Of a stretch of DNA of 63,800 bases, positions 1-41,658 are shown one piece after another. Source of the stretch: a virus; IMG/VR virus record IMGVR_UViG_3300032282_004188, positions 1 to 63,800 of that record. One strand, written 5' to 3'. A program made the position numbers and the translations under genes. The notes below the pieces were generated by a model, which did no database searches, was not told where the DNA came from, and was given only the letters and a program-made list of their open reading frames with translations. Numbering within the stretch: the stretch's first letter is position 1; each line of letters opens with the position of its first letter.

Positions 1-3000
1 CAGCTTTTTCAGGTAAACTTGTCGCCGTTTGATTTGACATAATGTCCTTCATTAAAGCTGAAGATCCATGAGTATATTGAATTCCGCCAATCATCTGAGT
101 ACTTAAGGCGTCTGCAAGTGCATCTACCGAGATATTTCCTCCAGCGTTAATTCCACTGTTGGATGCCATTATATTATCCATATAGAATCTAGTGTCATTT
201 CTCATATTTTGCATGCTGAGCCATGAATGTATCCATGAAGACAAGAACCATTTAGAAGGGTCATTAACCGTAACTAGCGCGTTAGGTGTTACCGTGGTGA
301 CGTATCCCATCTCTGAAGTGAAGTGGTGAACCACTTGTTCTACCTCAAATATTCCATACATTCTATTGTAGACATCAGAAAGATACACTAAGTCATGTGG
401 CCTAATATCTGGATTTCCTATTATAGTTAGTTCTCCACCATAAATATCTTTAATTGATTCCTTTAAATGAGATAGTGCAACTCTTCTTGCCGAAAGTTCA
501 TCTGGAGTTCCCTGTAATGTTTTTGCGTATCCCCTAAATGTTTCCAAAGGGTGCATAAACGGATGAAGTACCCCGAGGAATCCAGAACCAATCATATTGT
601 CATAATATAGTCCCGTTTCAACTGTTGTTTCTGTTTGACGTTCTGATGGTGCGCCTTTGTCTAAAGCTACGGTTACTGGATTTTTTCCATCGGAAACAGC
701 TGTAATAACAGTTGAAACGTTATTTAAATTTTCTTGAATTTGGTTAGATATAATATGAGAAAAAGAACTTAAATAATGTATCCTCTGGAATGGTTGACGA
801 ATTTCCATTACGGGTTCTCCATATTCCCTAGTAAATGGATTGTCTACAGCTCTTAATAAGCTTCCTGGTCTACCAAGCGAATAGTATATAGAGTCATTTA
901 ATACCTTATTCAAAATGTGAGCTTGCTTACTAAAGTTTCCAACTTCGGAAAGTGCATACCCCATTTGCATCATGCTTAATTTGAACATGCCCAATAGCGC
1001 AGACAAGCCATCTCCAATGGCTCCAAGTATTGGTCCTATATTTGAATTGTAGAAGTCTGATACATCTTCATCTATTCCGCCGATAAATGTTGAGGAGTTG
1101 TTGCCTTCTCCTTTAGTAGAAACTAAAAGTTTTAAAAATCTACTATCCTCTTTAGCATATTGGCTATATGGATTAATGAATGCCTCAAATACCTTATCTA
1201 CCGGTTTAAAAGACCATTGTCCATCTTCGCCTCCTCCGCCAGGTGTAATGGCACCGCGCTTTCTATCTGGTTTAAGAACTAACCAAGCTCTACCATACGC
1301 GGAACTCCAAAGCTTTTGCCTGAATAATCCAACCATTAATAAAAATAGTTGATGTGGAGTTTTTATTACTTCTGATAATTTTATTGCAGTTGCTGGATTA
1401 TTTTTATTTTCAATTTCAATTGACAGCGCATTATCAATTACTCCCGTTTCAAAAAAGTTTGACTTAATGCCATCAAGTGATCTAGATATAACACTATTAA
1501 AATACTGTATAATTCCGGCATCACCTTGTATGCCCTTGCTCTGAAAGTCTATATAATTTGCTCTAATAAATTCTACAGCTTTTATTCGTGTCTCTGCGTT
1601 TGTTGTTGCTACACCCTGTCCCCCGAGTTGAGGATTACTTGGACCATTAAAAAAGTCTGAACCTAAAAGAATTGCCAATTCATCTACACCCGTAGCATCT
1701 GCTCTTCCAATTGTGGAAAGACCAGGAACATCTACTTCGCGATCTGAAAAATTACTGAATGGGCTGGCATTGCTGCCACCTAGTATTCGGGAAAACTCCG
1801 CAGGGAAGGGGTCTATGGAATCGGCATCCATGCCATATGTTTTTGTGAATATAGCTTTAACGCTATCATATGTATGGTATCCAAATCTAAATTGATCCCA
1901 AATATCTGATGCCTGATCAAGTGTTCTTCCATTTCCAGCTATTACTGAAACATTAGGGTCGAAATTTTCGTCATAGAAAGATCTAGCTTCAACTGATATG
2001 GAGTCTAGCGACGAATAAACTGCGCCAAAGCCAATTCTTCCGCTACCAGTCTTTTCGTCTCCCGTAGTATAAAGCTCAGCGTCGAGACGTTCATACAACT
2101 TACCCCTATCTAAGGCGTCATAATTTGCATCGATAACCGCTTTAAAGTATCCTGGATCGTCTCCACTTTTTATAACATTTCCGGCGTATTCATAATTTGG
2201 AATAGATACCATTGAATTTGATGCAACGTATTCTTCTATGGATGAAATATTTTTATCTAAATATCTTTCTGCGCTATCTGCGGACATGCCACCCGGCGCT
2301 TCAATGATCGCCTTTGAGGCGATAAATTTATTACTGTCTCCATTATCATTGATGGCGTAGTTCCCAAAGCCTATAATGTATGCCCTGGAGTCATTACTGT
2401 CGTAAAATCTTTTTGCTGGCGCCGCCTCTGATGATACTACTCCTAACGGAGTGTCATCAGGGACAAAACCAAAAAAACAATCAACGTCTCGGGGAAAGGA
2501 GCTTAATGCAGTTTCTTTTTCTATTTTTTTTAGAATAGAATTGTCAAGTCCTATGCCATCATATAACGACAAATTTGCCCATGCTGGCAAAGAATCTGCC
2601 AACTGGCTACCATCAATGGCTATTTTATCATCTATGGTAGAGACAAAAGTACCCAGATACCATGCTGCGTCAGGGGATACGACCGCTGCAACGTCGTCTT
2701 CATTATTTTCTCCCCACATAAAATACGCAGGGGCGCAAACAACTGCTCTTCCGGTTAATGGACTAAATACGAGTACTTTTCTTTTTTTATAATCACTTAC
2801 CGTTCCACTTAATGATGTATCAGGGTCTGGAAAATAAATATTTTTAAATTTAGCTAACGATGTTTCCGAAATGGAAGGTAGGTAGGGCCATCTCATTGCT
2901 ATGTAGAACTGCTCTTCCACGGCAGTGGTGGGACATCCCCATTCATCATATGAAATTTGATCAGTTAATTCATATTCAAAACTAAAATCATCTACGTTTT

Positions 3001-6000
3001 CTGGCAACTGAGCTGTAACACTATTGACCGCGGCAAAACCTATTGTTGAAAATTGATCTTTTTGAGGATTGGAAACTGATGGTAAGGGCATTCTGGCAAT
3101 AGTCGTTTGAGCTAGTCCTAAAAGACCTGTCCCAGAAGATTGAATCGTGTCCATAAAACTAGTAAAACCTAAGGGTCTATCCAATTCCAGTATACCAGAA
3201 CTAGGCTTTAAGGTTATTTTTGTTTCATTTAAAAACTCTGCCTCTAATTGAAGGAAATATATAAGATTAGCCGATAATAAAGCTCCACCTTGTGAGAAAG
3301 AATTTAACTGAGCTTCTTTAATTCTTTTATCTAGATTTTGTTTTTTTGATAGATTTGACAACTGCGATTCGTTACTATCTCCATCGTCAAAATGGTCCAC
3401 AATTCTAGCAGCGGGGGCAAAAGGATTTATAGATCCTTGAAAAAAATCAATGATCCCCGATGCTGTTGATCTTTGATCTCCTGCAATATCATTTAAGTAC
3501 TTACCAAATAATCCACCATCTCTAACTTCATAAGATTTTTTATCAAGAACTGTAGTTTCTGATATTGTATAATATGGATATTTAAATCTTGGAGGAAGAT
3601 TATCTAACTGTCTATGATCATAACTTGGAGTGAGAGTAGCGTAGGTTGTGGGCTCAGGGCTGACTGGTAAGTGAAAACCCATTTTAACTTTACCAATACT
3701 AACGGGGAGTTTAGAAACAATAATTTCATTTCCATCTTTATCTTTACTGGTTCTAGTTGTTGCTAAATTTGAATCAAAATTTAATAATTTTCCTGCTAAT
3801 TTTTGCGTTGGCGCGTATACCCCTTTTGATGATGCTTGATCCTGTGCCAATCCAGCCATAACATCACTAAGTTCTTCGGATCTTTTAAATGCTTCATAAT
3901 CTGCTAACGAGTTTGACTGTTTATTAACATTATTCATAATCGTTTGAATATCTTCATTGGGACTTCTATACTTAGGATATCCTTGCAGTTGTAATTCATT
4001 TGCTTTTTTTACACTTGGAAAACCTGTGGTTATTGGAATTACGCCAGAAGTATATAACCAATGTGGTTTTCCGTAAAAAATAGTAGACCTATCTTCAAAG
4101 GGTCTTACTGCTACAATATAATTGGGCAGTAGTCTTGCACATATCTGAAAAAGATCCCATACAGTTCTCATATATGTTTGTGCCCGGAAAGATACTTCAT
4201 CAAATCCGCTTAAATCATCATCAGCGTTTGGCGCTATGATTCCCATTGTCCGGAATACGTTATTTCCCCCTCTTCCACTTAGTAGGCCCGTAAGTGCCGC
4301 TCCTCCCGCCAATCCCGCAATAACATTAACTCCAGGTATCGCGGCAATTCCGGCTGTTACCCCTCCCATTAAAACGTTTTTTACAGCCCCTGCTCTTCCT
4401 TCAGCTGAAACCAGTTTATTATCTTCGACATAAGAATCTATTGTATTACTAGATGACACTGAACCATTTTGCGCCTCTACTATTAGCCTGTTCCATGATC
4501 TATCCGTTCCATTTTCCAGATATTGTTGTCCTGCTAAGACTTTTCCATCATCCTTGACCATAGAAGAAGCGGTTAACCAGCCATCGTCCAAGTCTCCACC
4601 TAAGAACTGCGCAAATCCTGTTCCATTTCCAGGGTAAATATTTCTTTTATATAGTTCTAAATCAACTTCTGAACAAAAATTAGACATTAGCTGACCCATG
4701 CTAGTCATGATATTTCCGTTTCCGAAAAATGCATTAACGGGGTTTCTTTGAAAAATATTTGTTGATAATTTAAACGTAGCAGCATTTGCGGTTCCGCCTA
4801 TATCTCCCTGACCCGCGTTTGCGTAAGCGTTGGTAACAACATTCCTTAGTCCATCAGCTCTTTGTTTTTCAACCTCATTAAGAGGTTCGTATAGAATGGT
4901 GCCAAAATGTCTAATGCCAAATCTATTTTCGGAAAATACAGTTCCAAGAGTTGACCTTGCTATAGCCTCACGAACCCTAGAAGCTCCCATGCTCAGTAGT
5001 CTGACCATTAAATCTCTTGGCTCAGAAAGATACATTCCAGTATCTACTCCACCATCTATTTTTCCCGAATCGCCTTTTTTATTTGTTGAGTTTACAATGG
5101 CTCCAAGTTCAATAGCGTCAGACTGTGCCGTGACCGTAACTATCTCCCCCTCTTCAACATTTGTTATTACCCCATTAAATAATGTTTGCAGTGAGTTTGG
5201 ATTAGAGCCATACCCACCTCTTAAGTGAACTCTAACTCCGGGCTTTAATCTAATATTATTAATGTCTACTACATAATCATTTCTCATTCCTGAGACAATA
5301 TTTTTAGCTATATTTAAGGTGCGATCTAAAATGGCACTAATTCCATCCGTAGAGTTTAAAGGGTCAGAATTAAAGTCGTCATTGCGTGCGTTAAATATGT
5401 CTGTAGATGGGCGCGTCGTTAATTTAGAGTACATATTTGAAACTCTTAGTATTAGAGTGTCTCCCAGTAAGTCCTCAGATGATACAACTGAAAAATCTAT
5501 AACAGACTGAAGTCCATAGAAATTATCAAATAACTTGACTCCTGCAAACATTCCTCCTTCATCTATTAGCCACAGCATATAGGTTGGAAATGCTCTGAGC
5601 ATTCGTCCAGATATATCCCTATACTGAACGTCATTGAGCATTTTTTCTATATGGTTATTAAATGATCCATCATAAGCTTTTTGATATGATGAAAGTGGTT
5701 GAGCGCCACTAATTCCAGTAAGGGAATTTTTACATCCTGTATCTGGAGTTTGCGTGTCTACTGTATGATTACTTGCTAGTTTTTTAGCTCCGTCACTTTC
5801 GACTTTAACATTACTACCCTCTATTGTCAGGTAAAATCTTCCAGTATCTTTATTAATGTAACCAAAATGTGTACCGAGGGCACTGTACATGATTGCCGGT
5901 ATTTCATTTGGCTGATCTTTTTCCGGGTTAGTCAGCGGCATAAGGTTAATAATTTTATGGAATTCTACCTCGTCTGGATTAAAACTAACAAATTCTTCTT

Positions 6001-9000
6001 CTGCCAAATGGGACGTAGCTAACACCTGCTTAATTATGTCTTCTGTTTGGGCACTTGTTATTCCTATGTTGCCTATAACATATGGTGATCCATTGATTTC
6101 TTCAAAAAATTGTTTATCTTCAGAAGATTGTGAAGCTAAAAATATATAATCAGTTAAGAGCGCGCGCTTTGAATTGTTATTAATGGTGTCATTATCATTT
6201 TCTTTTATGATTTGTTGAAAAATATAAACAAAATTATGGATACTAATTCCAGTTGAGTTTACATAATCTATTAGTTCGTTAATTAAATCTTCATTTTTTT
6301 GTCGTCTAGATTCAATGGCAACTGGGTTTGCTGCGTCAGTAAAAGAATATCTTCTAATAAAATTTATAGTACTATTTTTTACCGACTGAAGCCTACTTTC
6401 CAGGGAATCTACTGATCCCTGCGCCCATTCATCTGCACTGTCGAAAGTAAAACCCTTGGTTAGATCCATTTGGATTGTTGTATTATTTATAATGTCACGA
6501 TCAAACATTTCAAAACTTCTAAAATAGAAATCTGGATCCATATTGCCAACAATATCTCCGTTAACATCCTTTATTCCCAGTGGCAAATCTGGATATGCAT
6601 TGAAGGATCCCCACAACTGCTTTATTCTTAGAAATGGATTTCTTTTTGTACCAAAATGTTCAATTAATTCTTTTTGTTGCTTTGAGGATATTTTCTCTCT
6701 TTGCTGTTGGAATATATCAAAGTCAACTAGGCTTAATTGTACGGAGTAAACGTGTGGATAATTCGGTATTGTATCAACCTTATAATTAAGCGGTAAGACA
6801 TATTTAATACCAGATAGCGCAGTTATAATGTTTTTAATTCCAAGGAATCCTATAACGCCAGTAGAATGCTCCAATCTTGCTAGCGCATTCACATGGTCAA
6901 ATACAGATTTAATTTTTAATAATTCTTTTTCACCAAAAACTGTCATAGATACATTAATATAACTATCTTTTCCGCCAATATATTGATAGCTTGGCTCATC
7001 TTGCATCTGGATTTGCAACTTAGCTAGATTGTTTCCCATTGATACGCTAACGCCGTTAACTATAGCGTTTTTTGGATCTAAATCTATTCGATTCATTGGG
7101 ACTTCCCACTCGTTAAAGTGATAATCTCCATCTCTTAATCTGACGGCGTCCATCATATCCTTAACAAATCCGTCAGAAAAAAATCTCTCATACATGTTTA
7201 CTTGAAAAGCGTCAGTGACCTGTTGTTTAATTTTTTCCCTATCTGGTTCTATTCCAGCGCTTTTAGTTTGTCTAATGAATTCTTCATCAATTAATTTTTC
7301 TAATATAGTTCCAGATTGCTTAGATCTTTCATAAAGTCTCATCTTAATTTCATTCAAACTTAAATCACTTACAAGTACATCATCTAGAAAATAAGATTCG
7401 TTAGTACTGGAGTATTGAGAAAAATATCCTGCTGTTTTACGACTTTCTTCATCGCTTGCATAATTTAAAAACCAATTTACTTGTTCATTATCTAATCTTA
7501 TTTTATTGGCATTTACGAAAGAGGTTGCTAAGTAAAGATAAACTTTTTCTCTTTCGTCAGAAGTAGATATGCCTGCGGTGAGGATATCAATTGCTTGTCT
7601 AATAAATGATTTTGTAGAATTTGAAAAAGTATTTTCCGTAGCCATTGATTTAACTTTATCAATGTCTTTGATCAGAGGAGTATTGACAGAGCGCTCTATA
7701 CCAAAGGAAGTCAGCAGCCTATCCCATAGCCCAGTTGCTGTATCGTTTAATATTTTCTCTTGATCACTTCTAAATGAAGTATTATCTGGTAGAAATATTT
7801 TTGTCTGCGTTTCAGCTGGGGTAAATAAAGTTATGTTACTTCCATCTCTCCATTGAGAAATTATATTAGTTGACATAACGTCATTGTTAAACGAATTAAA
7901 ATACGTGAGTTGCGTATCCTCTGGAAGCACGTCTAAGTTAAAGTTTTCAGATAGAGCTTCAATCCCCGCCGCTGTTTGTTCCTGCATATTTACAACGGTG
8001 TCTACCGTTTTATTATCTGAAGTTTTAAGTAGGAAACTTTCATTCACATACTTATGCATTTCTCCCGCTGCTTTGCCCATGTATTGGCGATATTTACCCC
8101 AATGTATTGCTTGATTGAAATCTTTAAGCATTGGGAGAAACGGTTTATGATTAAAGTGCACCATTTCCAAATCGATAACAAGGGCAAATGGGTAATTTGG
8201 AACTGTCGATATAGACATATTCGAGAGTCCAACAGCAGAGATTCCATGTGCAGAATTAAGATAACTGTTTTTAATTGGGAGGATTGGAGAGTATTTGAAC
8301 GCTGCGACTAAACCTCTCAGAGATGAGAGAAATTTATCTATTTTTTGTTCGTCATCTCCACCATTTTTAAAATCAATTGTAAAACTGTTATTTAGATTAA
8401 TCGATGCGGCATCTTCTATGGACAGCCCCCATATTTCTTCATAATTCGGGAAAAATAATCGCATGGATATTGTAGTTTCTTTATATCCCGTATTGAACTT
8501 GGGCGTATTTTTTTGCCTGATTGCCCCGCCTGTTAATGATCCAGTTTTAAAGTTAGAATTTACACTAATTGAAACCGGAGGAACATAGAAATTAGCGGCT
8601 CCCAACCTAAGATGAAAAATATCTGGTTTTCTGGGAGGAATATTCTCCCTAAAAGGAAAGTCAATAATAGCCTGCTTAATTCGCTGTGCCGTATTTTGTA
8701 CTTTAAAGGCTAATGTAAATATTGCCTGGCCACCTTTAGTAACTCCAAAGGCTTTTTCTAGTGAGTCAATTGCATCGGCTTCATTATTTAGGGTATCTTC
8801 CATTCCACCGCCTTGGCCGTCATTAGAGTAATCACCCACCGCTGCTAATGCGTCGAAAAGAAATATAACTAAACTTGGGAAATAAAAATTTATAATAGAA
8901 AATGCAATTGGATCTTTTTGAAGATTGTAAACTACTTCACTTAATATTGTTAACCAAGGCGTATCAACTTCTGGAACGATATAATCATTCATGGAATTTT

Positions 9001-9916
9001 TAACTGTTGCAACGCTTTGCAACCTTTTCTTTGCAAACTCGCTAATTTCATATGCGAATGATGCTAACTGCAGTAGTCCGCTTGCCTCTAACTTCGCATA
9101 GACAGATTTAGATGTTGTAATATCTAATTGTATAGAACCAAGAGCGCCTAATCCAAAAACTCTACTAGTTACCCCTTTTGATATATCATTAGCTGTGTAA
9201 TTTACTCCCCTTGTTGACAAGAAGTATTTATCTATTGCCCCATTAATATCGTTAAGTTCATTTATCGGATCACTACCATATACGTTGTTTAAAAATATTC
9301 TAAACTCCGTTAGATAATCTTTGGAATTTTCATCTTGTGTATTGTTATCTTCTAGTTCTTTATCTTTTTCTGTTGTATTAATTACTTCATTTGTTTCAAT
9401 TGCTGCCAGGTCTTCATCAGTTATTCCGTTTTCGCCTATGTAACTTTTCCAGATATTAAGCCTGTCAATAATAATTGACTTAGCTGTTTGCATTGTGATT
9501 TTTTTTGGAAAATTGTTAGGTAAGTAGGCGTAAAAAAACCAACTTAGTGCTTCTTCTATTTTTGGAACATTTATCGTAGCGTATCCGAAATTAACTGCCC
9601 ATGCCTGAAATGTTTCAAGTACAAATAATGAATTTGAATCTTTATCTAAAACTTCGCAGTTTGCCAAACGAAGCATTGACAAATACGCGTACTGGTCGCC
9701 TGTACTTTTGAAGTCATCATCGATTGCATAAATAAGGGCTTTTCCACCTTGATTATTATCATGACCAATTATATCCGGGTAAGATCCTGGCAAAATTAAG
9801 AACGAGTACATCTCGTTTTCATTGAAACCCGTAATATCTTCAATTATTGAATTAATACGATCTTCATTTTCAGATAGATACTTTAAGAGATCTTTTGCTA
9901 TTGGATTAATTGCCAT
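1..9916 (-). CDS. Giant baseplate hub-type tail protein (partial, over 3305 aa)
   Basis: An open frame with no stop from the ATG at 9916 to the left edge; AGGAAAG is upstream. Residues 1-500 (MAINPIAKDLLKYLSENEDR) are helical and of unknown family. From about 440 there are strand-rich segments (PPVSISVNSNFKTGSLTGGA) that resemble tail-core domains, and about 970 an SYQYIGGKDSYINVSMTVFG stretch. Near 1557-1605, KPGVRVHLRGGYGSNPN, LFNGVITNVEEGEIVTVTAQ match the first barrel of gpD/gp27-like hubs. Near 3155, GGELTIIGNPDIRPHDLVYL and YGIFEVEQVVHHFTSEMGYV match the last barrel. Residues about 1845-1885 hold a glycine-rich hydrophobic hairpin. It probably forms the tail tip that contacts the tube. 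Confidence 0.7.
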   Translation of the reverse strand, partial: MAINPIAKDLLKYLSENEDRINSIIEDITGFNENEMYSFLILPGSYPDIIGHDNNQGGKALIYAIDDDFKSTGDQYAYLSMLRLANCEVLDKDSNSLFVLETFQAWAVNFGYATINVPKIEEALSWFFYAYLPNNFPKKITMQTAKSIIIDRLNIWKSYIGENGITDEDLAAIETNEVINTTEKDKELEDNNTQDENSKDYLTEFRIFLNNVYGSDPINELNDINGAIDKYFLSTRGVNYTANDISKGVTSRVFGLGALGSIQLDITTSKSVYAKLEASGLLQLASFAYEISEFAKKRLQSVATVKNSMNDYIVPEVDTPWLTILSEVVYNLQKDPIAFSIINFYFPSLVIFLFDALAAVGDYSNDGQGGGMEDTLNNEADAIDSLEKAFGVTKGGQAIFTLAFKVQNTAQRIKQAIIDFPFRENIPPRKPDIFHLRLGAANFYVPPVSISVNSNFKTGSLTGGAIRQKNTPKFNTGYKETTISMRLFFPNYEEIWGLSIEDAASINLNNSFTIDFKNGGDDEQKIDKFLSSLRGLVAAFKYSPILPIKNSYLNSAHGISAVGLSNMSISTVPNYPFALVIDLEMVHFNHKPFLPMLKDFNQAIHWGKYRQYMGKAAGEMHKYVNESFLLKTSDNKTVDTVVNMQEQTAAGIEALSENFNLDVLPEDTQLTYFNSFNNDVMSTNIISQWRDGSNITLFTPAETQTKIFLPDNTSFRSDQEKILNDTATGLWDRLLTSFGIERSVNTPLIKDIDKVKSMATENTFSNSTKSFIRQAIDILTAGISTSDEREKVYLYLATSFVNANKIRLDNEQVNWFLNYASDEESRKTAGYFSQYSSTNESYFLDDVLVSDLSLNEIKMRLYERSKQSGTILEKLIDEEFIRQTKSAGIEPDREKIKQQVTDAFQVNMYERFFSDGFVKDMMDAVRLRDGDYHFNEWEVPMNRIDLDPKNAIVNGVSVSMGNNLAKLQIQMQDEPSYQYIGGKDSYINVSMTVFGEKELLKIKSVFDHVNALARLEHSTGVIGFLGIKNIITALSGIKYVLPLNYKVDTIPNYPHVYSVQLSLVDFDIFQQQREKISSKQQKELIEHFGTKRNPFLRIKQLWGSFNAYPDLPLGIKDVNGDIVGNMDPDFYFRSFEMFDRDIINNTTIQMDLTKGFTFDSADEWAQGSVDSLESRLQSVKNSTINFIRRYSFTDAANPVAIESRRQKNEDLINELIDYVNSTGISIHNFVYIFQQIIKENDNDTINNNSKRALLTDYIFLASQSSEDKQFFEEINGSPYVIGNIGITSAQTEDIIKQVLATSHLAEEEFVSFNPDEVEFHKIINLMPLTNPEKDQPNEIPAIMYSALGTHFGYINKDTGRFYLTIEGSNVKVESDGAKKLASNHTVDTQTPDTGCKNSLTGISGAQPLSSYQKAYDGSFNNHIEKMLNDVQYRDISGRMLRAFPTYMLWLIDEGGMFAGVKLFDNFYGLQSVIDFSVVSSEDLLGDTLILRVSNMYSKLTTRPSTDIFNARNDDFNSDPLNSTDGISAILDRTLNIAKNIVSGMRNDYVVDINNIRLKPGVRVHLRGGYGSNPNSLQTLFNGVITNVEEGEIVTVTAQSDAIELGAIVNSTNKKGDSGKIDGGVDTGMYLSEPRDLMVRLLSMGASRVREAIARSTLGTVFSENRFGIRHFGTILYEPLNEVEKQRADGLRNVVTNAYANAGQGDIGGTANAATFKLSTNIFQRNPVNAFFGNGNIMTSMGQLMSNFCSEVDLELYKRNIYPGNGTGFAQFLGGDLDDGWLTASSMVKDDGKVLAGQQYLENGTDRSWNRLIVEAQNGSVSSSNTIDSYVEDNKLVSAEGRAGAVKNVLMGGVTAGIAAIPGVNVIAGLAGGAALTGLLSGRGGNNVFRTMGIIAPNADDDLSGFDEVSFRAQTYMRTVWDLFQICARLLPNYIVAVRPFEDRSTIFYGKPHWLYTSGVIPITTGFPSVKKANELQLQGYPKYRSPNEDIQTIMNNVNKQSNSLADYEAFKRSEELSDVMAGLAQDQASSKGVYAPTQKLAGKLLNFDSNLATTRTSKDKDGNEIIVSKLPVSIGKVKMGFHLPVSPEPTTYATLTPSYDHRQLDNLPPRFKYPYYTISETTVLDKKSYEVRDGGLFGKYLNDIAGDQRSTASGIIDFFQGSINPFAPAARIVDHFDDGDSNESQLSNLSKKQNLDKRIKEAQLNSFSQGGALLSANLIYFLQLEAEFLNETKITLKPSSGILELDRPLGFTSFMDTIQSSGTGLLGLAQTTIARMPLPSVSNPQKDQFSTIGFAAVNSVTAQLPENVDDFSFEYELTDQISYDEWGCPTTAVEEQFYIAMRWPYLPSISETSLAKFKNIYFPDPDTSLSGTVSDYKKRKVLVFSPLTGRAVVCAPAYFMWGENNEDDVAAVVSPDAAWYLGTFVSTIDDKIAIDGSQLADSLPAWANLSLYDGIGLDNSILKKIEKETALSSFPRDVDCFFGFVPDDTPLGVVSSEAAPAKRFYDSNDSRAYIIGFGNYAINDNGDSNKFIASKAIIEAPGGMSADSAERYLDKNISSIEEYVASNSMVSIPNYEYAGNVIKSGDDPGYFKAVIDANYDALDRGKLYERLDAELYTTGDEKTGSGRIGFGAVYSSLDSISVEARSFYDENFDPNVSVIAGNGRTLDQASDIWDQFRFGYHTYDSVKAIFTKTYGMDADSIDPFPAEFSRILGGSNASPFSNFSDREVDVPGLSTIGRADATGVDELAILLGSDFFNGPSNPQLGGQGVATTNAETRIKAVEFIRANYIDFQSKGIQGDAGIIQYFNSVISRSLDGIKSNFFETGVIDNALSIEIENKNNPATAIKLSEVIKTPHQLFLLMVGLFRQKLWSSAYGRAWLVLKPDRKRGAITPGGGGEDGQWSFKPVDKVFEAFINPYSQYAKEDSRFLKLLVSTKGEGNNSSTFIGGIDEDVSDFYNSNIGPILGAIGDGLSALLGMFKLSMMQMGYALSEVGNFSKQAHILNKVLNDSIYYSLGRPGSLLRAVDNPFTREYGEPVMEIRQPFQRIHYLSSFSHIISNQIQENLNNVSTVITAVSDGKNPVTVALDKGAPSERQTETTVETGLYYDNMIGSGFLGVLHPFMHPLETFRGYAKTLQGTPDELSARRVALSHLKESIKDIYGGELTIIGNPDIRPHDLVYLSDVYNRMYGIFEVEQVVHHFTSEMGYVTTVTPNALVTVNDPSKWFLSSWIHSWLSMQNMRNDTRFYMDNIMASNSGINAGGNISVDALADALSTQMIGGIQYTHGSSALMKDIMSNQTATSLPEKA

Positions 9917-34889: not shown

Positions 34890-35948
34890 TCAGGCTGTTT
34901 CGTTAGTAACCATGACTTCGTAGTTACGGCTGAGTCTGACGTTCTTAGCAACAGTGATACCTTCACCGTCACCCAGCATGATGATGTCATAACGCTCTTT
35001 CATCTTGAGCTGGCGAATGTCGCGGCCCGGATCGTCAAACTGATCGGTGCTCATCTCGTCTTTGACAAGAATTGTACCAACTTCATTGCGATCAATGAGG
35101 AAGAGGTCTGACTTAGCTGCTGTTGCGCCACTCTTAGCCGTGAAGCTAACGAAAGGAGAAACAATAACGTTCAGTCCCATAGGGGCAGTCTGATTCAACG
35201 AACCCTCTGGCGACTGAGGACGATATCCCCAGCTTGTTCCAACGCCCGATGCCGAACCGCCGTGATGGAAGATAGCATCCTTAAGGAAGATCGACCACAT
35301 GAGGGGGTGCAGAATAAAGTCTGTCGGGATATGATTTTCAGCCATAAGGACGGCAGCCATGTCAATGATATCGTCCCACTTGACTGTCTTATTGGCAGAG
35401 CCGTTAATGTCAAGACCGGTTGTGTCATCATAGCCAGCGTCATCGTTATCAAAAACGATTGTAGCTGCATCTTTAAATCGGCTCAGAGCAATTTGCTCCT
35501 TAAGGCGAGCCATAGCACGGCCAGCTGCGCGAACATGCAGACCAACAATGTCCCAAAGTGAATCAGCGATCACTTCTTCTGTGAAAGAAAGCTTAACGCC
35601 CTTTTTCGAGACTTTGCCCTCTACCTGCTTTGCGAAAGCGAGTGCTTGTTCTGGATACTCTTGTCCTTCTGGGATCTCAGCAGCTTGAATAGCATTGACG
35701 GCCGGGAATTCCAATGAACGTCCCTTGCCGAGACGAACAGTGGAAAGCAATGGAGTCACTAAAAGCTGTGGCTCTGCTGCTTCTCTGAGCGTACGTGAGA
35801 GAACTTTCGGAAAAAGCGCTGCTGCATCTGACGATGCAAAAGCTTCCTTGATTGTTACTCTATTGTCTGCGTCGATATACCCGTCCTCGGTCATTGCTGT
35901 CTCCCAAGCTGGGAGACCCGAGAGGAGCTCTTGGATTGTCTTAGTCAT
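34890..35948 (-). CDS. Major capsid protein, HK97-like
   Basis: A 352-residue protein starting MTKTIQELLSGLPAWETAMT. The first 60 residues are a helical arm (VLSRTLREAAEPQLLVTPLL), as in HK97-fold capsid proteins. Later it has the strand-rich spine and peripheral domains (LEFPAVNAIQAAEIPEGQEY, GLNVIVSPFVSF, DLFLIDRNEVGTILVKDEM, YDIIMLGDGEGITVAKN). The size, the location after the prohead protease and before the neck genes, and a GC-rich codon pattern fit the most abundant virion protein. It forms the icosahedral shell after proteolytic maturation. A terminator follows the gene. AGGAGG is about 12 bases before the ATG. Confidence 0.85.
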   Translation of the reverse strand: MTKTIQELLSGLPAWETAMTEDGYIDADNRVTIKEAFASSDAAALFPKVLSRTLREAAEPQLLVTPLLSTVRLGKGRSLEFPAVNAIQAAEIPEGQEYPEQALAFAKQVEGKVSKKGVKLSFTEEVIADSLWDIVGLHVRAAGRAMARLKEQIALSRFKDAATIVFDNDDAGYDDTTGLDINGSANKTVKWDDIIDMAAVLMAENHIPTDFILHPLMWSIFLKDAIFHHGGSASGVGTSWGYRPQSPEGSLNQTAPMGLNVIVSPFVSFTAKSGATAAKSDLFLIDRNEVGTILVKDEMSTDQFDDPGRDIRQLKMKERYDIIMLGDGEGITVAKNVRLSRNYEVMVTNETA

Positions 35949-35986: not shown

Positions 35987-36760
35987 TTAGAGTGTCAGGT
36001 TGACGCGGAATGCACCAATGACATTAGTTACATCTAGATTCGAACGAATACCGAGCTTACCATTATAAGGACCAGCCTTAGTAAGTTCATAAACGGTCTT
36101 CAACGCACCCGGATCTGATGGGAGTTGCATGTAGCTGAGGAGGCCATCATCAAAGTTTGTAGCAAACTTTTCGACTTCGACAACCTTACCTACTTGCAAG
36201 TAGCTGTACACGGCACTGCTGTTGTAAAAATCGCCAGCAGCGGCCAATACTGGACGTCCCATTACGTCGGAACGAACTACTGAACCAACCGTCACATCGG
36301 CGTTAATACCGCTGACCATTGGATACTCTACATAGCCATGAGTGATAAATCCTGCACCTTGTGAGGTACCTTTATCAAAGGGTCTGTAGAGATCATACTG
36401 CGCGCAACCGATAGGGATCGAACGAGCAGGAACAACAACTGAATCAACCGCTCCAGATGAATAATCTGGTGTTGCGCCATCCGAAGGGGCCCATGTGGTT
36501 GGCATGGAGTCGCCCCAGGTCTTGCTTGAGCTTGTACCGTTAGCGGGAACAACGCGAGCGTCACCATTCGAATCGGCTACGACTGAAAGGATGGTTCCCT
36601 TCGGAATGACAATTTCAAAACGATTGTCTTCTGTGTCATAATACCATGTGGGAAGACCGGGGTGTGGCAACAAGTATGCTGCGGGAGCTATGCCCTCAGA
36701 AACGACGAAGCGACCAGCACCGGTCTTACTATGTACTTTGCGAAATTTTGCTAAACTCAT
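35987..36760 (-). CDS. Probable capsid decoration or minor head protein
   Basis: A 257-residue beta-rich protein that starts MSLAKFRKVHSKTGAGRF after a strong AAGGAGAT. It contains SGINADVTVGSVVRSD and KVVEVEKFATNFDDG, and ends GAFRVNLTL. The gene lies directly before the major capsid gene, and its base composition is clearly more GC-rich than most of the window, as for the capsid and sheath genes, so it is probably made in large amounts. Many large myoviruses encode a protein in this position that coats the capsid surface or sits at its vertices. No motif proves the role; the call rests on place and composition. Confidence 0.6.
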   Translation of the reverse strand: MSLAKFRKVHSKTGAGRFVVSEGIAPAAYLLPHPGLPTWYYDTEDNRFEIVIPKGTILSVVADSNGDARVVPANGTSSSKTWGDSMPTTWAPSDGATPDYSSGAVDSVVVPARSIPIGCAQYDLYRPFDKGTSQGAGFITHGYVEYPMVSGINADVTVGSVVRSDVMGRPVLAAAGDFYNSSAVYSYLQVGKVVEVEKFATNFDDGLLSYMQLPSDPGALKTVYELTKAGPYNGKLGIRSNLDVTNVIGAFRVNLTL

Positions 36761-36778: not shown

Positions 36779-38812
36779 TTAAAGTTTACGTCTACCCATA
36801 AGGGCATCAACTAGAACTTGCTCAAAAGATTCTTTGGGATCTGAAGCCTTAATGGGCTCCTCTTCCATGTCTACAGTAAGCACGTTATCTTCTTTTGCCG
36901 AAACTTCGGCTTCTGAAGTAATTGTGGGCATGTTTAACATCTCGCCAATTCTTTTACCAAACTTACTTGGTGTCTTAGCGAGGTCTCTCAGGCTATCGGC
37001 CAAAGAAGATGCTGTTCTTGTAGCATACTCTTCAATTAGTTTTTCGCGATCATCTGAAAGCTCAAAACCAAGTCCAATCTTAGTATCAACGACTCTTTCG
37101 ACCAATGTTCTATGTAATGCACTCTTGAGTTTTTTATTCTCCTCTTCAAGGGACTGAATTCTAGCTTTTTCATTTGCATCCTGCTCAGAGACTGCATTTG
37201 TGTCAGTGAGGTTTGCTTCTGATACTTCTTTCCCTTGATCTTCTTCGGCCTTAGATGAATTAGCTGAATCAACTTCTTGATTACCTAGTTCTTCTGCCTT
37301 TTCAAGCAAAGCCTTAGATCCATTTTCTCTCCACTCAGATTCTTCGGAAGACGCTGCTTCCATCTTCAGTGAAGATCTGAGCTGCCAAGCCCACTTCTTA
37401 TGCTTGTCATCGCGTTCTGCCAAGAAATTAGCAATACCCTGCTCATTGGCAGCAGTTGCTGCGCCAAAGGCTGATAACACTGAATCGTTAACCATATTAT
37501 TCTTAGTTAAAAGATCGCCAGCCAACATTAACGCATCTGTCCCTGATGCGTCATCCTTAAACGATGCATCCATAACAATTTGTGTTAAGTTAATCGGGAA
37601 AGCTTGAAGCTTTCTAAGATTTTCTGCAATGTCGTCAATTGAACCAATTGCATCTTCATAAATCATTGAGAACAATTGATGGAATTCCGTAAAATCTTCA
37701 CCCTCTACGTTCCAGTGAGCTCTATGGGCTGCGAAGTAAAATGCTAAAGTGTCTGCTAAAACTTTTTGAAGACCGGTAACAGTACTTGATGTGTCTGCTT
37801 CTACGGCAGTGACTTCTGCTTCACTAATGGTAACTTCTTCCTCTATAATATCTTCAGATTCTTTAGCTACTGACATTGTAGAAAGATCATCACTTAATTC
37901 TTGAACTGCAGCGAGGATGTCGTCGCCGTTAGTGTCTTGATCCATATTGGAATTCTCCTGACAATTATCGATATTTTCATTCTGATCAGATAGTAATGCA
38001 CTATCCTTGTATTTGTAATTTTCATTCTCCTGTATAGACAGGGCCGTCAAAAACGCCCCCTTCAATTGAAGGTAAATGGGCTTAGATTCTTTTTTCTTCA
38101 TCTCTGAAAAAATTGACTTATTCTCTGCGATGGAAATAATATCTTCATTATCCATACTAAGCATAAACGCGTTACTTCGAGCAACCCAGCCTTCTGATCC
38201 GGTAAGTTCGGCTTTTCCATCAGTAGATTTTAATGCTCTAACTCCAGATTTTTGATCTGCTGGTTGATTTACGAATGAATACTCTTTGAAGCTAATGTCT
38301 TGCATTTCTACGTAAGCGAGTTTGCCCTTATAGACTTTGCCTCTTTTATACTTTGCGACCCTGGGCCTGCCGGATGCGTCTTCTGACGCAAGGTCTTCCC
38401 CAGAAACGCTACAAACTGCTTTTCCGGCCCTTCCGCCAACAGAACCAGTTAAGTATCTCTTGTCAAGAACTTTCTGTGCAGCGACCGGATCGGTGATTGC
38501 TATTTGCAAGCGGACAAAAGAAGAACCATCTTCTTCTTTGTCCATTTTAGCAGCGATGACCCTGCCAATGGCTTCTGTATTTAAATCGTGATTAAGAATA
38601 ATTGGCTTTGGATATGGATCTACCCATGATTGAAGTGCCTTTTCCAATTCTTCTGCAGAATAATTATTATAATTAGAAGTAAGGCCTTCATGAATTGCAG
38701 CGACTTCTATAATTAAACCATGCTTTGAATTGAATGATTCCGAAAAATCAATATCCGACTTTGAAAAGTCAGGAAGTTCTAATGTAAAATTTTCAGTAAA
38801 ATCAAACGACAT
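36779..38812 (-). CDS. Prohead protease fused to Dps/ferritin-like domain and coiled-coil scaffold
   Basis: A 677-residue protein with three parts. Residues 1-200 are a prohead serine protease: NHDLNTEAIGRV (His75) and YLTGSVGGRAG (Ser124), 49 residues apart as expected, cut scaffold and capsid proteins in maturation. Residues about 345-485 resemble Dps: HWNVEGEDFTEFH gives His366 and His378 12 residues apart, and DDIAEN gives Asp393 (15 further) and Glu397 (4 further), matching the ferroxidase spacing of known Dps. Residues 500-677 are an acidic coiled coil, like phage scaffold proteins. AGGTGA lies five bases before the ATG. The gene leads the decoration and capsid genes. Dps activity, and release by self-cleavage, are inferences. 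Confidence 0.85.
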   Translation of the reverse strand: MSFDFTENFTLELPDFSKSDIDFSESFNSKHGLIIEVAAIHEGLTSNYNNYSAEELEKALQSWVDPYPKPIILNHDLNTEAIGRVIAAKMDKEEDGSSFVRLQIAITDPVAAQKVLDKRYLTGSVGGRAGKAVCSVSGEDLASEDASGRPRVAKYKRGKVYKGKLAYVEMQDISFKEYSFVNQPADQKSGVRALKSTDGKAELTGSEGWVARSNAFMLSMDNEDIISIAENKSIFSEMKKKESKPIYLQLKGAFLTALSIQENENYKYKDSALLSDQNENIDNCQENSNMDQDTNGDDILAAVQELSDDLSTMSVAKESEDIIEEEVTISEAEVTAVEADTSSTVTGLQKVLADTLAFYFAAHRAHWNVEGEDFTEFHQLFSMIYEDAIGSIDDIAENLRKLQAFPINLTQIVMDASFKDDASGTDALMLAGDLLTKNNMVNDSVLSAFGAATAANEQGIANFLAERDDKHKKWAWQLRSSLKMEAASSEESEWRENGSKALLEKAEELGNQEVDSANSSKAEEDQGKEVSEANLTDTNAVSEQDANEKARIQSLEEENKKLKSALHRTLVERVVDTKIGLGFELSDDREKLIEEYATRTASSLADSLRDLAKTPSKFGKRIGEMLNMPTITSEAEVSAKEDNVLTVDMEEEPIKASDPKESFEQVLVDALMGRRKL
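37358..37780 (-). other. Dps/ferritin-like domain within the protease gene
   Basis: This marks residues about 345-485 of the 677-aa protein. The first helix TGLQKVLADTLAFYFAAHRA, the HWNVEG turn, a second helix with HQLFSMIYEDAIGSIDDIAE, and the later helical pair ending DDKHKKWAWQLRS follow the four-helix order of Dps. The two ferroxidase histidines, the Asp and the Glu are all in place. Dps proteins assemble into 12-subunit shells that oxidise iron and often protect DNA. Confidence 0.75.
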
Positions 38813-38889: not shown

Positions 38890-39669
38890 TCAGACTTTAG
38901 CATAGTTTTCAAAAAGTAAATCATATCTATTATCTCCGTTTGCTAAGAATGATTGATAAAGACTTTCTGACATAATATGTGGAGCGTAAATATACGAAGC
39001 ACAGTATAGTTTAAAATCTTGCTGTTTGCAAGCGAGAGACCAACCTACATCTTCGCCCTGCTCATGAAGTGTATAGTTAATATTGCTATAAACATCTTTG
39101 CTCATCATTTTTGCAGCCATAATTACATCAGACTGAAAATAGGTTCCTAATTGATATTTTTCTTCTCTATATGCTTTATTGGGAATATCTGATCTCCAGT
39201 TCATAACGCTTGGATACATAGTGCCAAAAGGAGTCATGAACATTAAAGGGTTAACAGCGTCTGCCCCTGATTTAATGTGAGCTATTAACAGTTCTATTGT
39301 ATTGGGATTCGTTAATAAAATATCCGAATCAAGACTCAGGTAATAATCGGGCTGAACATCTCTAACAGTTTGTAATAAAGAATTTCTTAGTGAAACCATA
39401 TTGATATATTTTGACATAGTCCATTGTCTACCATTATTTTCGTGTTCAAAATGAGGTATATCATCTCTAATTTTTATTTCAAAATAAGGTATATTTTTAT
39501 CAAATGATTTCCATGCTTCTAGCGAAGATATAGTTTCTTTATCATCTGGAGAAACTTCAAAAACAAAACCAATTTCTTTAAAATTAATTGACTGATTAAC
39601 CAGGCAGCGTATCCAGTGGGGAAGAATCCAAGATCTTTTATAAATTGGCGTTCCAATCAAAAGTTTCAT
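38890..39669 (-). CDS. GT-A fold glycosyltransferase (GT2-like)
   Basis: A 259-residue enzyme. The N-terminus MKLLIGTPIYKRSWILPHWI is the usual start of nucleotide-sugar binding glycosyltransferases. The metal-binding DxD motif is LSLDSDILL (Asp114 and Asp116), EDVGWSLACK (206-215) is a likely acceptor and catalytic-base region, and His231 could complete the metal site. It transfers a sugar from a nucleotide donor; the acceptor is unknown. The gene is inside the head cluster between the portal group and the prohead protease, which is an unusual place. It suggests glycosylation of a capsid or fibre protein, or of the host surface. The ribosome binding site is weak. Confidence 0.75.
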   Translation of the reverse strand: MKLLIGTPIYKRSWILPHWIRCLVNQSINFKEIGFVFEVSPDDKETISSLEAWKSFDKNIPYFEIKIRDDIPHFEHENNGRQWTMSKYINMVSLRNSLLQTVRDVQPDYYLSLDSDILLTNPNTIELLIAHIKSGADAVNPLMFMTPFGTMYPSVMNWRSDIPNKAYREEKYQLGTYFQSDVIMAAKMMSKDVYSNINYTLHEQGEDVGWSLACKQQDFKLYCASYIYAPHIMSESLYQSFLANGDNRYDLLFENYAKV

Positions 39670-39672
39670 GAA

Positions 39673-39966
39673 TTACTTTTTTTCTTCCTCTAATATTTCA
39701 TTAATAGATTCTTTAGCTTTTGTAATTGTCTTCACTTGCGCGGGAGATGGAGCTGGTACGACATCAATAGTTAAGTCTTTTTGTTTGGATGCATCTTCTT
39801 CAAGGTGATCAATTCTCTCAAATAACTGAGTAAGAATATCAAAAACTACTTCAAGGGCCAATCTAGTTTGACCATTTTCTACAACTTTTTGCAGACCCTT
39901 AATAGCATCGTGTGTTCCTAGGTATTCCGATACTCTATCATTTTTTATTGTCATCTTTTTCGACAT
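39673..39966 (-). CDS. 97-aa coiled-coil protein downstream of portal
   Basis: Starts MSKKMTIKNDRVSEYLGTHD inside the end of the portal gene, with AAGGATG nine bases before the ATG. The body is helical, with a likely coiled coil around ALEVVFDILTQLFERIDHLE (residues 37-56), then a Pro-rich linker and a charged helix ending EEEKK. The size and place after a portal gene resemble scaffold-like or chaperone proteins in other phages, but no family is recognised. A second Met at residue 5 is a weaker start candidate. Confidence 0.6.
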   Translation of the reverse strand: MSKKMTIKNDRVSEYLGTHDAIKGLQKVVENGQTRLALEVVFDILTQLFERIDHLEEDASKQKDLTIDVVPAPSPAQVKTITKAKESINEILEEEKK

Positions 39967-41599
39967 TCAGTTCATCCTTTTCATCATTTGTATAAACTAT
40001 AGTATACTCTGACTCAAGAGCATTTTCAACTAACGTAAGCCACGCGTTATCAGATCTTTTAATATTTGGAGAAGTATTTCTTCCCTGTTGATTAGTCGGA
40101 CGAATTACATTACCTGCGCCTTTTCTTTTATTTGGCAAATTTCTTTGACCCTTTTGGGCAGGGTCTTGTTTATCAGCATTCAAAGCAACGTCTTTAGACT
40201 TTAACGAAGCGTTAAGCTCATTCTGCTTTTTGCTCATATCTATTTGTATTTGTGCCTGAATAGCCGCATAAAATTCTTTAGGATTATGCTCTGCGTCCAT
40301 ACCTAATTCTATTCTTGCTTCTGAAAGGCCAATTAAATTGCTTGTAAATTTTTGAATAGTATGAGTTTCTTTTTTTACTTGAGTATCAACATCTATCTCA
40401 TTAAATTTAAAATAACAACGATCTGAAACGCCATCTTCGAGTGGATTAGTTATAGGGTCAAAACCACCCTCTAAAAGAAGTTCATTAAATAAGTGAACTC
40501 TTACCATCTCAGAGAAAAGCTTTTGATACTGCTTAACTTTGTCATAAAGTGCAGTATCTAGTCTATCTGTCATTGATCTATTGCCTCCGCCCATCGACAT
40601 GCCAAGATGGTGAGGGGCAACGCCTAAGCCAACAGAAACTCTTTCCTTAAAGTGATCAAGATATTTAGATGCATCCAGTGCTGCGTTATTTGCTCCAATG
40701 ACTTCAATATTGTGACGGAACGGTAAAATTAATCCGCCTTCTGCCCTAAGATTTTCTAGCTCTTCACCAGCTGTACTAATTTCATGAGGTTCGGCTGGCT
40801 GATCTGCTGTTCCTATTGTATATTTATACAATGGAAACAGTTCTCTATGCACTAGGTTTTGAATATCTTCTTCTATTTGACGAAGGGCAACAATATCATC
40901 CAGGGCTGCTTCCATAAATGGCGTTCCAAATGCTCTGCCAGTTTTTTTATCAATGTAGACATGAATAACCTTATCGGCAGTCCAAACAGGGTCGCGATCT
41001 GTAGGCATATATGTAAGTGGATCAGTACGCTGTTGATACTTTTGGGGTCTATTATGCTTATCTCTTAATATCCGCACCTGTTCAGTAGGTATTAGGTAAT
41101 ATCCAACAACCGGTTGTTCCGTATTAACCCCCTCTAAAGGGGTCGGAAAATATTCTGATATGTCGCCACGTGCCTTAACAATAAAGGCGTTTCCATATTT
41201 AAAGAGATGATCTGTAACTTCTATTAAGAAGTCTAGGAAGGGACGTTTCATTGCCATTTCCATGTAATCTATTCTTTGATACAAGTAAGAAATTGCTTCT
41301 GGATTTTCTCCTACAATTTTCCAATTCTCTTTCCAGAATAACTCTTTATACTTATTTAAAGCTTGCTTTACATAAGAATCAGTATCAGCTGCCTGCATGA
41401 TTCTATAGAAATCATAAGGAGAGGGCTCAAAAGTTGATCTTTTACTGAAAAAATAAGTATTTCCCTGAAACCCAAGTGCTAGCGATGCAACTTTCATTGA
41501 TCTGCTAACTGATTTAATTTCTTCACCATCCAGTGCTTTGGCTGTAAAATTATTATTTTTATCAACTTGCCTAAAGGGCAAATAATCAAAGACTGCCAT
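39938..41599 (-). CDS. Portal protein
   Basis: A 553-residue portal. The ATG at 41599 is chosen because GGAGAG is five to six bases upstream; a TTG four codons earlier overlaps that site. The order of segments fits the family: an N-terminal arm, a helix-rich wing with FGTPFMEAALDDIVALRQIE, the clip and stem region with YLDHFKERVSVGLGVAPHHL, GMSMGGGNRSMTDRLDTALY, then a helical crown with ASNLIGLSEARIELGMD-type helices. It forms the ring at one capsid vertex through which DNA enters and leaves. The last residues overlap the start of the next gene by 29 bases. Basic Gln/Asn-rich residues near 480-510 may be exposed. Confidence 0.88.
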   Translation of the reverse strand: MAVFDYLPFRQVDKNNNFTAKALDGEEIKSVSRSMKVASLALGFQGNTYFFSKRSTFEPSPYDFYRIMQAADTDSYVKQALNKYKELFWKENWKIVGENPEAISYLYQRIDYMEMAMKRPFLDFLIEVTDHLFKYGNAFIVKARGDISEYFPTPLEGVNTEQPVVGYYLIPTEQVRILRDKHNRPQKYQQRTDPLTYMPTDRDPVWTADKVIHVYIDKKTGRAFGTPFMEAALDDIVALRQIEEDIQNLVHRELFPLYKYTIGTADQPAEPHEISTAGEELENLRAEGGLILPFRHNIEVIGANNAALDASKYLDHFKERVSVGLGVAPHHLGMSMGGGNRSMTDRLDTALYDKVKQYQKLFSEMVRVHLFNELLLEGGFDPITNPLEDGVSDRCYFKFNEIDVDTQVKKETHTIQKFTSNLIGLSEARIELGMDAEHNPKEFYAAIQAQIQIDMSKKQNELNASLKSKDVALNADKQDPAQKGQRNLPNKRKGAGNVIRPTNQQGRNTSPNIKRSDNAWLTLVENALESEYTIVYTNDEKDELNVEKDDNKK

Positions 41600-41658
41600 G
41601 TATCTCTCCAATATGAAAACTATATATAATAGTAGTTAAAGTGCTGTTTTTTTATAAG

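Follow-up and report, generated by a model that had tools for sequence, protein, structure and literature searches.

A Dps domain within a head-protease and scaffold gene

In the window, by which we mean the whole stretch of 63,800 nucleotides of viral DNA that was analysed, one gene of the head module encodes a head protease, a Dps domain and a coiled-coil scaffold tail in a single frame of 677 amino acids, placed between the genes for the portal and the major capsid protein (MCP) (Table 1). An earlier note on this DNA had seen a Dps/ferritin-like domain inside this gene and had proposed a profile search and a structure prediction as checks. Both match Dps, and the presence of the domain is confirmed by Pfam, PHROG, PDB, AlphaFold and Foldseek. 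Residues 347-482 matched Pfam Ferritin with an E-value of 1.3e-11 and 45 bits (cut-off 24.5), residues 340-483 matched PHROG_3636, labelled 'DNA binding protein' (E 1.1e-21), and residues 336-482 matched the solved P. aeruginosa Dps 8ff9 (E 1.3e-15). When residues 340-488 were modelled by AlphaFold with 26 aligned sequences, the pLDDT was 94.8 and the pTM 0.89. The model contains the short BC-loop helix of Dps (domain residues 70-76) and lacks a fifth (E) helix, as a Dps-type four-helix bundle does, and the top Foldseek matches listed were all members of the Dps family (MrgA, Dps1, PA0962 Dps and others), with TM values to the query of 0.86-0.91. Residues 341-485 are a Dps domain, whose start lies at about residue 341 and not at residue 345 as first placed. 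The profile, PDB, AlphaFold and Foldseek matches rule out a chance resemblance to Dps, and a dead ferritin relic is ruled out by the low dN/dS and the invariant ligands described below.

Table 1. Features of the fusion gene and of neighbouring head genes in the window
Feature	Position	Strand	Basis or note
Protease / Dps / scaffold fusion, 677 aa	36779..38812	-	ORF, Pfam and PHROG matches
Head-maturation protease domain (by homology), residues ~33-195; His75, Ser124, Glu177 invariant	38228..38716	-	homology
Acidic hypervariable linker, residues 200-339, ending in AVE/A (candidate cut at the slash) at the conserved [ILV]xEA position	37796..38215	-	
Dps domain, residues 341-485, four-helix bundle with BC helix	37358..37792	-	profile and structure matches
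Ferroxidase ligands region	37622..37717	-	alignment
His366	37715-37717	-	ferroxidase ligand
His378	37679-37681	-	ferroxidase ligand
Asp393	37634-37636	-	ferroxidase ligand
Glu397	37622-37624	-	ferroxidase ligand
Acidic C-side linker, residues 486-541	37190..37357	-	
Coiled-coil scaffold tail, residues 543-677, ending in ...DALMGRRKL	36782..37186	-	
Conserved 257-aa protein between scaffold and MCP	35987..36760	-	
Major capsid protein	34890..35948	-	Phage_capsid_4; PHROG_3922
Portal protein	39938..41611	-	PHROG_9232

The front half of the chain is, by homology and gene position, a head-maturation protease, and the place between portal and MCP is that expected of such an enzyme. The two residues named for it in the earlier note, His75 and Ser124, hold up together with Glu177, and all three are invariant across 11 sequences, out to Moorella, Bacillus and Gordonia phages. 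The front matched PHROG_18299 weakly (E 0.003) and is clearly similar to proteins annotated as proteases in Bacillus KLEB27-3 and Gordonia Stormageddon, with a value of 6e-8 against the capsid maturation protease of the latter, which itself matched PHROG_18299 at 1e-16. It is also similar to a protein of Moorella MTATph1, and hhalign of the protease set against the S78-type set gave 89% with an E-value of 2e-6. As to the fold of the protease, the full-length model was poor in this region, and the profile search of the PDB gave no match. The coiled-coil scaffold tail, which had likewise been proposed, is found as a predicted coiled coil at the C-terminus, where helix 543-580 is predicted at high confidence. 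The Moorella and Bacillus relatives gave no Dps match, and the Moorella one consists of protease and coiled coil; because these relatives are without Dps, the protease-scaffold is probably the older state, into which Dps was inserted later.

Elsewhere in the window, a glycosyltransferase-like gene lies directly upstream of the protease gene (38890-39669; its Pfam matches are weak and below the cut-off), and a 259-aa ORF of the same kind occupies the equivalent place in L158. An open frame of 3305 amino acids on the minus strand (2-9916) runs off the left end of the window.

The ferroxidase site

His366, His378, Asp393 and Glu397 are the equivalents of His51, His63, Asp78 and Glu82 of Dps, and their spacing of 12/15/4, given in the earlier note as that of E. 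coli Dps, was borne out. The four ligands are invariant in 26/26 distinct members of the family in the alignment, and in all 61 Dps domains that we compared, bacterial and free-standing phage domains included. The site had also been called complete, but the word is overstated, since the fifth canonical ligand, Asp67 of E. coli Dps, is Ser382 here. The position holds S/A/G across the window family, A/G/E/K/Q in other phage contexts and E/M/Q in the seven bacterial plasmid Dps proteins examined. Because it varies in bacterial Dps too, Ser382 leaves membership of the Dps family intact, while the loss of Asp67 may weaken the second iron site.

His378 lies 15 residues from Asp393 and 19 residues from Glu397 on one predicted helical stretch (374-401), which is too far apart for one iron in a single chain, and therefore the ligands would meet only across a Dps-type two-fold dimer. 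On the model, joint conservation of the ligands thus implies that such a dimer is formed. The Dps family is known to form dodecamers, and the domain may form one as well. Judged by its sequence, it would also oxidise Fe(II).

An optional module under purifying selection

When relatives of the fusion gene were collected from IMG/VR, 180 were found and 80 were kept. The Dps domain is present in about 28 of these first 80 loci, which come from many samples and rule out an assembly chimera or an artefact of a single contig; the remainder are without it. Some relatives lack exactly the Dps domain and keep the same flanks on either side, as in L031, which is 88% identical to residues 1-345 and 85% identical to residues 480-677, with nothing between. 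On a gene tree of 45 rows built without the Dps domain, its presence or absence changes at least seven times, as forced by supported branches. Alleles have also been swapped. Between L013 and L019, dS is 0.39 in the protease, 1.35 in Dps and 0.18 in the tail, and between L009 and L015 the corresponding values are 0.53, 0.02 and 0.04. Based on these state changes and allele swaps, we regard Dps as an optional module. The median dN/dS, calculated by a simple counting method, is 0.10 for Dps, 0.08 for the protease, 0.19 for the middle and 0.23 for the tail, and the Dps domain is thus under purifying selection. No further ferritin-family gene, free-standing ones included, was found in 20 related contigs of up to 268 kb, which are mostly fragments. 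Among about 137 homologs, judged by length and by reading of the sequence, no other cargo domain occupies the Dps slot, which otherwise holds the acidic linker and coiled coil alone.

In many relatives, with or without Dps (L006, L007, L011, L013, L015, L018, L057, L077 and others), the protease gene passes into the +1 frame after its first ~42 codons, about 130 bases from its start (for example L007 8108-8155). The shift falls at the CGG of ...GAR CGG A...; a sub-clade has it four codons further on, at the CGG of ...ACA CGG A.... Skipping the C of CGG gives GGA (Gly), which matches unshifted homologs such as the window, and, with 8 occurrences among 82,507 codons, no codon there is used less than CGG. 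These sequences suggest a programmed +1 frameshift that is conserved and placed at a rare codon; no report of such a frameshift was found in the open-access literature searched.

Recurrence in other head genes

A search with a Dps-only profile found 170 viral loci, of which 80 were kept. In L134, L135, L145 and L146, a PHROG_9427 protease is joined to DUF6321 and Dps with a different C-terminus, while Dps follows an S78 protease in L161 and a PHROG_3270 protease in L156. ORFs of 276-478 amino acids with Dps and an acidic tail lie between the MCP gene and a protease or PHROG_2859-containing gene (L125, L127), a PHROG_2859-Dps protein adjoins an XkdF-type protease (L141, L153), and a short Dps ORF stands between the MCP gene and a DUF6321 gene (L155). 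As for close cellular homologs, a first genome scan gave none and a second gave two MAG contigs that carry phage head genes: L163, with the order reversed, Dps preceding an S78 protease in one protein and an MCP-like gene following directly, and L162, with a short Dps ORF directly after the MCP gene.

When these domains were placed on a tree, 51/51 head-context Dps domains fell in one clade (support 100/100), which excludes bacterial Dps as well as the three Dps proteins of free-standing phage genes that were included (S-SRM01, BS162P1 and BUCT695). That they form a single clade is due in part to the search, whose patterns were derived from the window family. The different protease partners and the reversed order suggest that the fusion arose more than once. 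Among the cultured phages of INPHARED, free-standing Dps relatives alone were found at the limits used, and the Dps-carrying viruses are a group of mostly uncultured bacterial viruses.

In L141, a head-module ORF of 1552 amino acids (L141:394-5049) near the Dps ORF carries Mu F-like and ADP-ribosyltransferase domains, and may be another capsid cargo, like T4 Alt.

Linkers and a candidate cleavage site

Although the linker before Dps is otherwise acidic and hypervariable, most members have an EA pair 11 residues ahead of the Dps core. Of the 32 distinct linkers, 27 carry the motif [ILV]xEA within the last 22 residues, against a mean of 5.4 and a maximum of 14 after shuffling. This count is inflated by the relatedness of the linkers, and the window's own AVEA is a weaker form of the motif. 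In T4, the head protease gp21 cleaves after [IL]xE and leaves internal proteins (IPI-III and Alt) in the capsid. The motif before Dps is similar, although the T4 internal proteins are encoded by separate genes and none is a Dps, and the cleavage considered here is a predicted one. An [IV]xEA at the N-terminus of the MCP was set aside as proof of the specificity of the protease, because this stretch is shared among MCPs, possibly for structural reasons.

The net charge of the Dps domain is about -10 across the family, it lies between acidic linkers, and the DNA-binding basic tails of some Dps proteins are absent. Protection, if there is any, would therefore be through iron and peroxide chemistry. 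The earlier note had supposed that the protease cuts Dps subunits out, to stay in the capsid as a DNA-protecting or iron-scavenging particle. The position in the protease/scaffold gene, the constraint, the recurrence and the cleavage-like motif agree with packaging in the virion, but direct binding of DNA has become less likely.

Comparison with known systems

The domain resembles bacterial Dps (B. subtilis MrgA 2chp, P. aeruginosa Dps 8ff9 and E. coli Dps) in its fold (TM 0.88-0.91), its BC helix and its four ligand equivalents, but differs in being embedded in a protease/scaffold polyprotein, in belonging to a phage-specific clade, in having Ser at the Asp67 position and in being without basic tails. 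Free-standing Dps proteins (Lactobacillus phages, Gratiaviridae, SU10/Privateer, S-SRM01) are also carried by phages, but as separate genes, outside the head-protease/scaffold gene where the context was seen. Those of Privateer (PMC7881722) and SU10 (PMC4281155; sample not gradient-purified) are reported from virion preparations by mass spectrometry, as is a ferritin-like protein from virions of a Vi01-like phage (PMC10892097). In encapsulins, a shell of the HK97 fold is described as holding an enzyme of the ferritin superfamily (PMC8346489, PMC6668986), a combination that would be shared here; however, this is a tailed phage with a portal and a maturation protease, its Dps is fused to protease and scaffold, a cargo-loading peptide is absent, and it does not belong to the encapsulins. 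The earlier note knew of no described scaffold containing a Dps domain. This agrees with the open-access literature that we searched, where no description of a phage scaffold or protease with a Dps domain was found, but UniProt/BFVD holds predicted proteins of this fold, automatically named 'Prohead protease [uncultured Caudovirales phage]', and sequences of the fusion type have thus already been deposited.

Discussion

We suggest that Dps is an optional cargo between the prohead protease and the scaffold tail, joined to them by acidic linkers. Membership of the scaffold would bring the domain into the procapsid, where the maturing protease would cut the linkers, with [ILV]xE/A just before Dps as the likely site, and Dps dimers or a dodecamer would remain in the head alongside the DNA. 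The domain could use peroxide or oxygen to oxidise Fe(II), which would limit Fenton damage, whether in the head, in the cell after injection or during assembly. We infer cleavage, retention in the virion, oligomerisation, catalysis and benefit. Many phage scaffolds are degraded and expelled, so that retention of Dps is not assured. Since a conserved ferroxidase module follows head-protease genes and can be absent, capsid cargo is the simplest account, and a capsid-targeted Dps freed by the maturation protease is the reading that we favour and consider somewhat probable.

The Dps domain might instead act in the infected cell before or during assembly, detoxifying iron or peroxide, with the scaffold fusion giving late expression and the domain being lost on maturation. 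In the loci inspected, the free-standing Dps genes of phages are found in replication or accessory regions, and protection of the host during infection has been proposed as their role (PMC8008677, PMC6669764). We nevertheless consider such a role unlikely, because the head-module clade is separate from the three free-standing genes on the tree, and every representative examined is part of, or next to, a gene for a head protease, scaffold or MCP, a placement that expression timing alone does not need.

It is less probable still that the domain is a structural module which nucleates the scaffold core as a 12-mer and keeps its iron site for folding or stability. The dodecamers of the family, the position between protease and coiled-coil tail, and the dimer interface that ligand conservation implies would all suit such a module; however, since Dps is absent from relatives whose flanks are up to 88% identical, the core does not need it, and exact conservation of four metal ligands exceeds what a bundle needs. 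We give very little credence to a Dps that, as some cellular members of the family do, binds the packaged genome and condenses it: family membership and the PHROG_3636 label point that way, but the acidic character of domain and linkers and the missing basic tails point against it.

Returning to the capsid-cargo reading, we see an even chance that a transferable lineage of capsid-cargo Dps has been spliced into the head-protease/scaffold genes of several phage lineages, and that their virions carry a protease-released, active ferroxidase cage, as a viral counterpart of ferritin-loaded encapsulins. If this is true, the scaffold would supply virions with an enzyme against iron and peroxide damage, or with an iron store, and phage assembly would be linked to the biology of iron and oxidative stress. 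It would also be a natural case of an HK97-type capsid with a ferritin-family cargo, as in encapsulins, and iron in phage particles becomes testable with a specific gene and natural pairs with and without it.
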